Of a stretch of 64,000 nucleotides of DNA, positions 49,368-54,682 are shown one piece after another; the stretch's first letter is position 1; the number at the start of each line of letters is the position of its first letter. Location: assembly GCA_945873305.1 (NCBI GenBank), contig CAMCCX010000001.1, positions 1 to 64,000 on the forward strand. The letters are read 5' to 3'. The position numbers and the translations under genes are program-made. This DNA is from Akkermansia muciniphila (GTDB lineage Bacteria; Verrucomicrobiota; Verrucomicrobiia; Verrucomicrobiales; Akkermansiaceae). The notes beneath the pieces are model-generated. The model did not search any database, was not told the origin of the DNA, and saw only the letters and a program-made list of their open reading frames with translations.

Positions 49368-51339
49368 CTAAAGCGCGCTCCGCTCGGCACGCTTGAGCAG
49401 GACCTGATAGCGATTTTCCAACATCACGGCGCGTTCCTCGTCACCCGCGGCCCGGTAGTAGCCGCAGATCATCTTGTAAATCGAAGACTCGGTTTTCGCG
49501 CGAAACCAATCCTTCGTTCCGGTTTCCACCACGCGCTTGAAGGCCAGCTCGATGTCGCGCGCCGCCTTGTGGGCGAGCTCCGGGTCCTCTTTGAGGAAGC
49601 CAAAGTAATCATCGGCCATCATTTTGAAGCCGGTGATGCTGCCGCCATATTTCCGCAGGGCGCTGTCGTAGAGATTGCTGATATCCTTGTTGGCGGTTCC
49701 GCCGCCCCGCTTGTGAATCAGAGCGGCCTCGCGCTTGAGCGACTCGGCGACGAGATCCATTTGCTCACCGGAATTGCGTTCGATCCGGCGGCGCTCCCGC
49801 CCGAGCATCCTCGAAGCGTCACCCCCTTCACCGTAGGGGAAAACATATTCGTTCTCCGCCTCCGCCGCCAGCGCCGCCATCCGCGGGTTATCTTTGAATT
49901 CCTGACGCATCGCCTTGGCGAACGACTGCCATTCCTCCAGATTTCCCGGCTTGGCGGGCTCACCGGTGAGCTTTGTTTGTTTCTGAAGCGACGCATACAA
50001 AGCGGCCCACGTTTCGGTGAACGAGGGGCCGAGTTGATTTGCCAGCCGCACGGTCACGGCGTGATCGTCGTCCTTGCCGGTGGCCCCGAAGTAGTCGGCT
50101 AACCAAAGATGACGCATCACGGATAGGGTCGTCACCGGGCTTTGGTGGGCGCGGTCGCTCCATAGCTGCACTTCCTGCTCGGTGATCGAGCCGCCGGTCT
50201 GAGGATGCCCGGTCATGCCCTTGGAAACCCCGCCGATCCTGCCGACGCCGGTGGTCCATTCGTCTGACTGGATCTTGATTCCCACCCAGGCGTGGCCGCC
50301 CAGATCGGTTTCTCCACCGAAGGTCATTGCCGGAATCCCCTGGGCACGGGCGCCGCTAACAAACCCTTCTCGTTCTTCTCGATAAACCACATGAAGCGCG
50401 GCAAGGCGCCGACGGTGACCTGCCCGGCGTAAGGCCCCGCGACGGGATTGGAAATCGCAACCTCCTGGTCGAACACCACCGCGCAGGCCAGCGCGAGCGG
50501 GAAATATTTCTCCATCATGCCGGTTGTGTTCGGCCAGGCGTCGATGAGGAATTTCAACACCTTCCCGCCGTCGTCCTCTGGCTTGATCGTCAGCAGGAAC
50601 TCTTCCATCGCCGGGGTGTTATAACAAAGCCAGGTGAGCATCTCGCCGGAGTAGCTGTCGCCAACCAGCCCTGAAATTTCCTCTTCCGACAAGCGGCCAA
50701 GCAGTTTCCAGCGGAGGAAAGCCTGGTAGAAAACAGGTTCTTTCCAGACAGCATCGAACCGGTTCAAGCCCTGGCCCTTCGCCAGCTCCTCCAACCCGGG
50801 CTCCATGGACCTCGCGAGCAAGCCTCGATAGGCATTCCACGCCTTGCCCTCGATGGCTCGCCTGAAGAGATCCTTGTCGCGTCGGATCGCGTGCTCTCGC
50901 CGGGAATCCAGATCCGTGAGGACGAGCTGAGGCTCTTTGTCTAGCAAGTCGGCCTCGTTCGGATTGGCGACGACGGCCTCCTTCGGCACGGGCGCCTCGG
51001 TCGGCGGCGGAAGCGGAGTTGCCGGTGTCGCCCCCGCTGGCCGGGGATCACTTGCTCTTCTGCCACCGCCGGAGGTGCCGCATCAGGTTGGTTCGCGGGT
51101 TTCGGCACGGCTTCACGCACGATCACAACTGGTGCTTTCGGTGCTTGTCGCGATAATTCCAAACCCACGAAAACCGCACCGATGACAACCACGCCAATCG
51201 TCAGCGATCGCAACTGGCCCGCCCTCTCATTCCCACGCGCCGACTGGGTCGCCACAGTTTGATCGCGAGCTGCCAGAACCGGCTCCGGGCGTTTTACCGG
51301 CGCTGGAGGTTTCTCCGCCGGATGAATTTCTCGCTTCAT
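49368..51339 (-). pseudogene. Transglutaminase-like or membrane-anchored protein split into three frames by two apparent 1-nt indels
   Basis: ORFs 50941-51339, 50324-50989 and 49368-50390 are contiguous pieces of one protein; joins fall near ccccgg/ggggg and ccc/gggg runs. Confidence 0.65.
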
Positions 51340-51584
51340 GATAGAGCGGCCAAATGATGCCGGAGTCGGACTTCCTGCTCGTGAAAAGTAAGGCGAAGTC
51401 AGCCACCTTGCAATCCAGTTTACCGCCCGGGTTTGCTGGATGCTTCCGGGCCATGAGGACGTGCGGATCGAACTCCCCCGCTTGGCGATGAACTAAAAAT
51501 ATTGTTCGAAGCGCCCCGCTGGTAGAGTGCCCGATCTGGGTGGGTTTTAGGGGAAAATTGCCCTTGCGGTGAAACATCGAGACC

Positions 51585-51835
51585 TCGTTGACGAAATCTC
51601 CGGTGAAAACGTTAAGTTTTCCGGTATCGGCGAGGAATTCGCCGGTCCCGTTGGGGACAGATTGGCAATTGTTGAGGAAAGGCGGGACGGCGTTGAGGAA
51701 ATTGATTCGGAAAACGACGAAATCCCGGACTCCGTTGGCGAAAACGGGTGTCCGTTGAGGAAACCGGAGGTGCCGTTGAGGAAAATGATGACTCCGTTGA
51801 CGGGAATTTTGTCTCCGCCGAGGAAATCGCGCCTG
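51585..51835. repeat. Array 2: 12 tandem 21-bp units (12-bp semi-conserved ccgttgaggaaa + 9-bp variable)
   Basis: 251 bp = 11x21 + 20; e.g. ccgttgaggaaa|ccggaggtg|ccgttgaggaaa|atgatgact|ccgttgacggga|attttgtct|ccgccgaggaaa|tcgcgcctg. Confidence 0.92.
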
Positions 51836-51857
51836 CCCCCAAGATTATCGGGGCTCT

Positions 51858-54077
51858 TCAGGAGAAATTCAGCGCGTCCATGTCGAAGACGACGGTGACG
51901 TCTTCGGGCAGCGGGGTTTTCGCTAGAATCTGTTGGACGTGGCGGGTGAGCGGGCGGGCGCGGTGGGAGCGCAGGGTGATTTGGAAACGGAACTGGCCGT
52001 GCGAGCGGATGAGCGGCGAGGGCAGCACTTCGCCGAGGGTGATGCCGGCGGGGAGGTTTTCCGCGAGGCGGAGGTGGAGGGTTTGCAGGGTGAACTCGGC
52101 GCGGCGCTCGTGGGTGGAGCGGCTTGTTAGCACGGCGCAGTGGGCGTAGGGCGGGAACGAGAACTCGCGGCGGAACTCCATTTCCTGCTCGGAGAAGCCG
52201 TCGAAGTCGTGCTTGCGCGCATACTGGATGGATGGCGAGTGCGGGGTGAAGGTTTGCACGATGACTTCGCCTGCTAGATCGCCGCGGCCGGCGCGGCCGG
52301 CGACCTGGGTGATGAGCTGGAAGGTGCGCTCGCCGGCGCGGAAGTCCGGCACGTGCAGGCCGAGGTCGGCGTTGAGGATGCCGACGAGGGTGACGTTGGG
52401 GAAATGCAGGCCCTTGGCGATCATCTGCGTTCCTATCAGGATGTCGATCTTGTGGGCCTTGAAGGCGGCGAGCGTGTCGCGCAGGGCGTTTTTCCGGCGC
52501 ATGGCATCGGCGTCGATGCGGGCGAACTTGGCCTTCGGAAAAACCTTGGTGAGCACTTCCTCGACCTTTTGCGTGCCGTAGCCTTGGAGGAGAATGTTAG
52601 GATCGCGGCACTCGGGGCACTTGCGCGGGACGATGGATTGGTAGCCGCAAACGTGGCAGACGAGCCGCTCGTCGGTGCGGTGATAGGTGAGGGCGACGGC
52701 GCAGTGCGGACACTGGCAGACGTGGCCGCAGGCGGTGCATTGGAGCGATCTGGCAAACCCGCGCCGGTTGAGGAAGAGGATGGATTGCTCGCCCTTTTCG
52801 AGCCGCTGCTCAAGCGCGGCGCGGAGCTTGTCGGATAGAATGGCGGGGCTGCCCTTGTGCTTGGTTTGCTCCAGGCGCATGTCCACCACGCGGACGAGCG
52901 GCATGGAGGCGCCGTCGGCGCGCTCGTTGAGGCGGAGCAGGTCGTATTTGTCGGTTAGCGTGTTGTTCCAGGATTCGAGCGACGGCGTGGCGGAGCCTAA
53001 CACGATGGCGCACGGCTCGAAGGCGGCACGCAGCACGGCGACGTCGCGGCCGTGGTAGCGCGGGACGTTTTCCTGCTTGTAGGTGTTTTCGTGCTCCTCA
53101 TCCACGAGGATCAGCCCGAGGTCCGGCAGCGGCGCGAAGACGGCGGATCGCGCGCCGATGACGATGCGCGCGGCGCCCTTGCGGATGCGGTGCCACTCGT
53201 CGAAGCGCTCGCCCTGGGAGAGATTCGAGTGGAGCACGGCGACCTGGTCCTGCATGCCGGCGAAGCGGGATTTGAAGCGGCGGACGGTCTGGGGCGTCAG
53301 GGAGATTTCCGGGACGAGGACGAGCACGGTTTTCCCGAGGTCGAGCGCGCGTTGGGCGGCTTGCAGATAAACCTCGGTTTTGCCGGAGCCGGTCACGCCT
53401 AGCAGGAGAATGGGTTTCGCGGTGGTGGGATTCGCGACGGCGGCGAGCACGACATCGAGCGCGGCGGACTGGCCGGGGTTGAGTTCGAGCGGCTTGGATT
53501 CGAGGATTTCCTCGACGTTGTCGGCGTCCGGATCGCGGCGGACTTCCTCGGCGACGAGGCGGAGTAAACCCGCCTTCTCCATGGACTTGAGCGCGGCGGC
53601 ATTGCCATCGCCGAGGTCGGCGACTGGCAGGCGCATTTCCGGGGCGTGGCTGAGAAGGGAGAGGATGGTGAACTGCCGCGGCGCGCGCTTTTCCAATTTC
53701 GTGAGCACGGCCGGCTCAGGCTTGGCGTCTAGCACGGCGACGCGGCGGGTTTTCGCGGAATTTTCCTCCGAGCGCACGCCCTCGGGCAGCACCGAGCGGA
53801 TCACCGACTCGATGCTGGAGCCATAGTAATGGGCGATCCAGTCGGCGGTCCGCAGCAGGACCGGCGTGATCAGCGGCTCGGGGTCGATGAGGGATTCCAA
53901 CTCTCGCAGGGCGAAATCCGCCTGCTCGGACTCGCCCGTGGAAAGCACGGTGCCGGTGGCGGATTTCCGCCGCAGCGGGATGCGGACGCGGCAGCCGGGA
54001 CGCACGTGGAGCCCTGCCGGGATGGCATAGTCGAAGACGAGCTCCGAAGGTCCGTCGATCAGCACGCGGGCGTTCAC
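51858..54077 (-). CDS. priA: Primosomal protein N' (replication restart helicase)
   Basis: LLGVTGSGKTEVYLQAAQ, VDEEHENTYKQENVPRYHGRDVAV, zinc Cys pairs CTACGHVCQCPHC / CHVCGYQSIVPRKCPEC. Confidence 0.96.
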   Translation of the reverse strand: MNARVLIDGPSELVFDYAIPAGLHVRPGCRVRIPLRRKSATGTVLSTGESEQADFALRELESLIDPEPLITPVLLRTADWIAHYYGSSIESVIRSVLPEGVRSEENSAKTRRVAVLDAKPEPAVLTKLEKRAPRQFTILSLLSHAPEMRLPVADLGDGNAAALKSMEKAGLLRLVAEEVRRDPDADNVEEILESKPLELNPGQSAALDVVLAAVANPTTAKPILLLGVTGSGKTEVYLQAAQRALDLGKTVLVLVPEISLTPQTVRRFKSRFAGMQDQVAVLHSNLSQGERFDEWHRIRKGAARIVIGARSAVFAPLPDLGLILVDEEHENTYKQENVPRYHGRDVAVLRAAFEPCAIVLGSATPSLESWNNTLTDKYDLLRLNERADGASMPLVRVVDMRLEQTKHKGSPAILSDKLRAALEQRLEKGEQSILFLNRRGFARSLQCTACGHVCQCPHCAVALTYHRTDERLVCHVCGYQSIVPRKCPECRDPNILLQGYGTQKVEEVLTKVFPKAKFARIDADAMRRKNALRDTLAAFKAHKIDILIGTQMIAKGLHFPNVTLVGILNADLGLHVPDFRAGERTFQLITQVAGRAGRGDLAGEVIVQTFTPHSPSIQYARKHDFDGFSEQEMEFRREFSFPPYAHCAVLTSRSTHERRAEFTLQTLHLRLAENLPAGITLGEVLPSPLIRSHGQFRFQITLRSHRARPLTRHVQQILAKTPLPEDVTVVFDMDALNFS

Positions 54078-54155: not shown

Positions 54156-54214
54156 TTAATTGCGCCATGATTCCGAACCTGCCATTTTGCAAAAGTATCC
54201 AACCAAACAACGCC

Positions 54215-54682
54215 ATGAATGACACCGTCCTAGAATCCTCCCCGTCCGCCACGGAACGCTCTTCCGAATACGCGATCTACAAGCCGAATTCCCGAGGCAG
54301 CGGCGGCGTGGTTCGTTTCGGTCTCAATCCCGCCAAGGGGGCCGTTTTTGTCGATGCCGCCGCGCAGTCCGGTGAAAAGCAGTTCGACTGGGAAAATAAA
54401 ATCATCATGAAGTGGGGGCTGTCTGATCTGGGGGCCGTGCTCGCCGCATTGCAAGGCCGACAGGCTCAGGCGAAGCTTTTCCATCAGTCCGAGAAGGCGA
54501 ACAGCGCGTTCGAGCTGAACTATCAGGATGATCCGGAGCGCGCGCCCTATCTCCTGAGTATTTCCCGCCAGACCACGGAGGATAAATCACTGCGCAAGGT
54601 GACCATCCCGCTCAGCCATGGCGAGGCGGCGGTCTTGGAAACCGCGTTGCGCGCCGCGATCACCCGACTTCTGGCCTGGTGA
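54215..54682 (+). CDS. Whirly-like ssDNA-binding protein
   Basis: GEKQFDWENKIIMKWGLSDLGAVLAAL...KLFHQSE...LRKVTIPLSHGEAAVLETALRAAITRLLAW parallels plant Whirly YDWEKRQKFALSPTEVGSL...FFHDPS...[25 protein letters not shown]. Confidence 0.7.
   Translation: MNDTVLESSPSATERSSEYAIYKPNSRGSGGVVRFGLNPAKGAVFVDAAAQSGEKQFDWENKIIMKWGLSDLGAVLAALQGRQAQAKLFHQSEKANSAFELNYQDDPERAPYLLSISRQTTEDKSLRKVTIPLSHGEAAVLETALRAAITRLLAW

Follow-up and report, generated by a model that had tools for sequence, protein, structure and literature searches.

A 21-bp Tandem Array Beside priA in an Akkermansiaceae Genome and Its Relation to Arrays Upstream of Two Uncharacterised Gene Families of Verrucomicrobiota

Introduction

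The iterons of plasmids such as R6K, pSC101, P1 and F are direct repeats of ~19-22 bp that are spaced by two turns of the DNA helix, precede the gene that encodes the protein concerned and have a sequence specific to each system. In the type III toxin-antitoxin systems (ToxIN, CptIN, TenpIN) a repeat array is found directly upstream of a small protein gene, the known antitoxin repeats being longer than 21-22 nt. TIGR arrays, which are found with Tas proteins, are made up of repeats of 8-12 nt and spacers of 9 nt, and have two repeats, each about 36 nt, that alternate (PMC12045711).

The array described here, termed array 2, lies within a 64,000-nucleotide stretch of an Akkermansia genome (the window), in which it had been picked out from the sequence alone as a precise 21-bp period with a semi-conserved 12-bp core alternating with a 9-bp variable segment. 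No earlier description of such arrays was found in the open-access literature. In the following sections the array is compared with its copies in the same and other genomes, with the two gene families to which related arrays are linked, and with the systems above.

Array 2 and Its Surroundings

The coordinates and the count of 12 units given in the original prediction proved right, and the array is real by autocorrelation, which reaches 0.46 at lag 21 and 0.45 at lag 42, the value at lag 21 exceeding the maximum of 0.40 that 1000 dinucleotide shuffles gave over all lags of 10-59. The division of the unit into a core and a 9-bp segment is likewise real (p = 0.005 against permuted columns), with a core at approximately columns 2-12 (CGTTGAGGAAA) and a low-information run of nine columns, but it does not extend to every unit, with units 2 and 7 keeping only remnants of the core. 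On the minus strand array 2 reads TTTCCTCAACGG..., the same orientation as the direction of the gene at the C66 locus (see below). While the predicted limits hold for the units themselves, the related element reaches further left, with the stretch aaa(a/c)ttgcc.ttgcgg at its left end being retained across copies (Table 1). Dyad symmetry was not in excess in array 2 (p = 0.56), which has no palindromic unit of the kind expected of a REP/BIME element, and a scan of the window with Rfam covariance models gave zero matches.

As had been predicted, the array lies between the stop codon of priA and the next minus-strand gene, starting 23 bp past the stop. The latter open reading frame is without a Pfam match and belongs to neither of the array-linked families, and the Pfam scan of the linked and adjacent proteins, including the minus-strand frames adjoining array 2, found no replication initiator and no Nop domain. 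Beside priA, at 54167-54682 of the window on the plus strand, a Whirly-domain protein is encoded (Pfam E = 2.6e-9).

Table 1. Positions of the arrays and of the features around array 2 (window positions unless a contig is given).
Feature	Position	Strand	Description
Array 1	42589..42841		22-bp period, 11.7 units; sequence unrelated to array 2; without a family gene
Next minus-strand ORF downstream of array 2 (array orientation)	50941..51339	-	
Dispersed element	51540..51840 (approximate)		Shared with C15, C66/C79 and G032:C61
Array 2	51585..51835		12 tandem units, of which 11 are 21 bp long and the other is 20 bp
20-bp unit of array 2	51732..51751		Sole 20-bp unit; gapless alignment in other copies
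priA	51858..54077	-	Primosomal helicase; Pfam PriA domains
L161 array	G000:C2:44403-44711		22/44-bp; other sequence; beside a topoisomerase-type gene
L191 array	G000:C6:14995-15224		21-bp; other sequence; beside a uvrA-like gene

Copies of Array 2 and Inheritance of the 9-mers

The genome containing the window is an Akkermansiaceae draft MAG (3.06 Mb, 171 contigs, 95% complete), and its PriA has its top matches in MAGs of the same family. The genome-wide search for further copies proposed with the original prediction was fruitful, with related arrays that keep the 21-bp spacing present on contigs C15 (72%), C66 (81%, query 1-144) and C79 (79%, query 147-243). Since the C66 and C79 matches correspond to adjoining stretches of array 2 and both run into IS sequence, they are apparently the two parts of one array copy split by an IS. 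The IS at C79 opens an OrfA-like frame and the insertion reads as IS3-type; IS3-type ends were noted at L003 1-186 and L005 1602-1743, with a possible 3-bp duplication (GAC). In another species of the genus the array at G032:C61 corresponds to the C66 copy as its orthologue, the adjoining gene being the same and 76% identical.

The copies align over ~250 bp with 0-3 gap events, and the gapless alignment of the 20-bp unit indicates that it was inherited. When copies are compared in register, identity is 0.69-0.83 in the core and 0.50-0.71 in the 9-mers, whereas the 9-mers shifted by at least one unit fall to an identity of ~0.3, showing that they have been inherited and hence are not spacers turning over. 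It had been suggested that the 9-mers are essentially unrelated; this is so among themselves within array 2, but the paralogues and the other species' orthologue keep them in the same order, so that the notion of freely variable segments was not borne out. The same retention in register supports the earlier view that array 2 is not a CRISPR, and the view that it is not a simple satellite is also upheld.

Array 2 is closer to the C66 copy (0.83 in the core, 0.71 in the 9-mers) than the C66 copy is to its own orthologue in G032 (0.71 and 0.55), and no array was found 3′ of priA in any of the relatives examined, from 97% PriA identity down, in which the 3′ neighbours of priA differ from those in the window. 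Array 2 at priA is therefore a recent, lineage-specific copy, and the importance that the original prediction implied for its position there is not supported. On the sequence comparisons array 2 is paralogous to the array that precedes C66:608-1339 but has no gene of its own; it is most likely an orphan dispersed copy that would be inert or at most provide extra sites. Short inverted GGCGGA..TCCGCC repeats were also seen at the gene-proximal ends of array copies (L003 ~385-440, L004 1800-1860, L236) and are probably another dispersed intergenic repeat.

The window's genome was surveyed for arrays in stretches amounting to ~0.85 Mb. Array 1, of which there is an 83% copy at G000:C100:1545-1771, and the arrays on C2 and C6 were found in addition to array 2 and the C15 copy, and none of these three adjoins a family gene. 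Gene-less arrays are common in this genome and not in G316, a genome rich in family loci.

Association of the Arrays With Two Gene Families

The C66 array lies ~240 bp upstream of a gene for a 244-aa protein (C66:608-1339), while L070, a priA-flanking contig, carries another array of 12 x 21 bp, different in sequence, ahead of an uncharacterised gene of a second kind. Comparison of the two families by hhalign (probability 0.6%) revealed no relationship between them. Neither has a Pfam or NCBIfam match, the Rep families, ToxN/CptN/TenpN, the Nop domain and Cas included, nor a recognisable DNA-binding domain; a PDB profile search gave no match, and the AlphaFold prediction made without an alignment (pLDDT 41) was too uncertain to be relied on. 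No match to the L070 protein was found in plasmids or phages, and no relative of either linked gene type in viral contigs. The second family is the larger, occurring in 33 of the 192 sampled genomes of the order with up to 15 copies per genome; the window's genome has one gene of the C66 type and zero of the second family.

In many second-family genes a WD-rich N-terminal stretch or a small ORF lies between the array and the core domain (e.g. MNWDQGTWDNGFWDQP or TWD..LRWGDPSYxLEPGDPGY), loci of this kind being L280, L281, L260, L263, L268 and L287. Two paralogues in one genome (L262 and L265) are identical in the C-terminal half and divergent in the N-terminal half, suggesting gene conversion.

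Relatives searched with both proteins yielded a first set of loci, almost all of them with a 21-bp array on the upstream side. At a fixed threshold a 21-bp array was present upstream of 26 of 34 family genes in this set and of 13 of 942 control ORFs, the latter taken from the surveyed stretches, in which other multiples of three are as frequent as 21. The associated p value of 1.4e-34 is nominal, since the loci share ancestry and their independence is overstated. The threshold for an array was chosen after the first set had been seen and fixed before the second, a replication set confined to loci from new genomes among the 192 genomes of the order. With enough sequence available at 36 loci, a 21-bp array was found upstream in 33 and downstream in one, and at one further replication locus, L314, the period is 22 bp. 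Each of the 15 family loci of G316 has an array, with periods of 21, 42 or 63 bp, and no 21/22-bp array was found in 400 kb of other sequence of that genome. The association of the C66 type also recurs in a more distant genome (L279). As judged by these comparisons, in which the surveyed genomes are draft MAGs, the arrays constitute a class, with a period of 21 bp or rarely 22 bp, located upstream of two unrelated gene families of Verrucomicrobiota. A 41-bp array of 8.9 copies at L351 8417-8783 is the only strong tandem array in those 400 kb of G316 outside the family loci.

Properties of the Arrays

The arrays have a median of 12 units (range 7-25) and a median distance to the gene of 220 bp. 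No motif common to the arrays rose above permutation. The units of the G316 arrays are mutually unrelated (0.50 against a null of 0.50), and even beside paralogues that are 82-88% identical in protein the units are at chance similarity. Unit sequence can nevertheless persist for long, as AACC-N4-GGTT is retained in three members from three genera, with proteins 55-61% identical, across a change in the unit from 21 to 22 bp.

The arrays of the second family have more dyad symmetry than column permutation gives (combined p = 1.4e-7; 3.5e-7 for new arrays), with the excess carried by about one third of the arrays, and no such excess was found in the family of array 2. A universal palindromic unit was accordingly rejected. 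Some arrays are 92-97% homogeneous and others near 50%, many being uniform with no variable segment, and 42-bp super-periods are present in some. Substitution rates within the arrays have no codon-position pattern, and a depletion of gaps is only suggestive.

Interpretation

The reading we prefer, with a probability of roughly 0.4, is that the arrays are cis-acting, helically phased DNA elements, iteron- or operator-like, with array 2 as a gene-less paralogue or dispersed copy. The units, spaced by two turns, would all face the same side of the helix, where a putative factor could bind cooperatively with a sequence preference that differs by locus, and the bound factor would control the downstream gene in a layout like that of plasmid iterons or an operator array; the palindromic units of about one third of the arrays would suit a dimeric binder. 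The cis function, the binding, the regulation of the downstream gene and the inertness of array 2 are all steps that we infer. DNA geometry is favoured by the constancy of period and position under a changing sequence and by the occurrence of a 22-bp period, and the earlier proposal that the spacing represents two helical turns is supported, having gained weight from the 22-bp family array and from the lack of a codon pattern. Against this reading stand the want of a recognisable DNA-binding domain in both linked families and of a known binding protein, and the lack of a dyad excess in array 2's own family. Recognition by the adjacent protein itself is doubtful, given the unrelated units beside paralogues of 82-88% identity, unless specificity resides in the faster-changing N-terminal half. 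A broader proposal, possible but rather doubtful, is that of an array-plus-gene system of Verrucomicrobiota in which two families would carry locus-private phased 21/22-bp arrays whose sequence is free as long as the period, and often the dyad, is kept, with many independent copies per genome and with gene-less arrays as mobile or decoy elements.

The lack of relationship between the units of different loci, their apparent replaceability between close paralogues and the span of homogeneity down to near 50% would also be expected if 21-22 bp tandem duplications of no function, of whatever sequence was present, kept arising through recombination, slippage during replication or something that the gene product does, array 2 being a decaying copy. 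A period held strictly to 21/22 bp across genera and always on the upstream side is at odds with this, as are the excess of dyad symmetry, the retention of AACC-N4-GGTT in three genera and the conservation of core positions above the rest between copies, and we regard such an origin as unlikely, though with some weight. An array acting as RNA, with units carried on a leader or on a transcript of their own that hold the adjacent protein in check in the manner of ToxI RNA in type III toxin-antitoxin systems, would share the layout of tandem repeats directly upstream of a gene for 230-290 aa at many paralogous loci with distinct repeats, and the units are palindromic in about one third of the arrays. 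The folding of RNA from the arrays is weak and inconsistent overall, with the minus strand of array 2 folding above shuffles (z = -2.26) but its plus strand and array 1 at chance; the units of 21-22 nt are shorter than the known type III antitoxin repeats, are unrelated between close paralogues and adjoin no known toxin family, making this account improbable.

Two further readings fit far less well. Heptad-repeat peptides could be encoded by the arrays, 21 bp being seven codons, and open frames do exceed those of column-permuted arrays, with long frames crossing some of them; the 22-bp array of one family member excludes this as a general rule, the inherited 20-bp unit shifts the frame of array 2, no frame is open in the direction of the gene in two of the arrays, and with neither a codon-position pattern nor a pattern common to the heptads it is very improbable. 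The resemblance of a 12-bp repeat and 9-bp variable segment to TIGR arrays (PMC12045711), together with the 42-bp super-periods, could point to guide RNAs encoded in TIGR or CRISPR fashion, the 9-mers serving as spacers, but this is scarcely credible for 9-mers that copies in different species still share in register, for arrays many of which are uniform with no variable segment at all, and for linked families without a Nop-domain or Cas match.

Comparison With Known Systems

A fixed array of 21-22 bp provides a strong handle on two uncharacterised families that are without a family match. The differing units beside close paralogues, at a fixed period and position, raise the question of whether the functional feature is the geometry of the DNA or a private specificity of each locus. 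They also call for caution, in that one locus alone can make such arrays look like a CRISPR, a TIGR array or a satellite.

REP/BIME elements share with the arrays short, partly palindromic intergenic units and gene-less copies scattered in the genome, but the arrays described here run head-to-tail at a fixed period of 21/22 bp, are few in copy, have a sequence specific to the locus and are linked to a gene without a transposase match. With TIGR arrays, array 2 shares an alternation of short repeats and variable segments of 9 nt, and palindromic versions occur in both; here the variable segments are inherited and often absent, the linked families have no Nop domain, and there is a single repeat of period 21 where TIGR arrays alternate between two of about 36 nt. 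Type III toxin-antitoxin loci have in common with the arrays a tandem array directly upstream of a small protein gene and repeats distinct to each locus, whereas the arrays here have 21-22 bp units that are not conserved between close paralogues and no match to a toxin family. Plasmid iterons resemble the arrays in their direct repeats at a two-turn spacing (21-22 bp), their place upstream of a gene and a sequence particular to each system; the arrays differ from them in being chromosomal, with up to 15 copies per genome and 7-28 units that are often degenerate, in being linked to proteins without a Rep-family domain, and in having gene-less copies.
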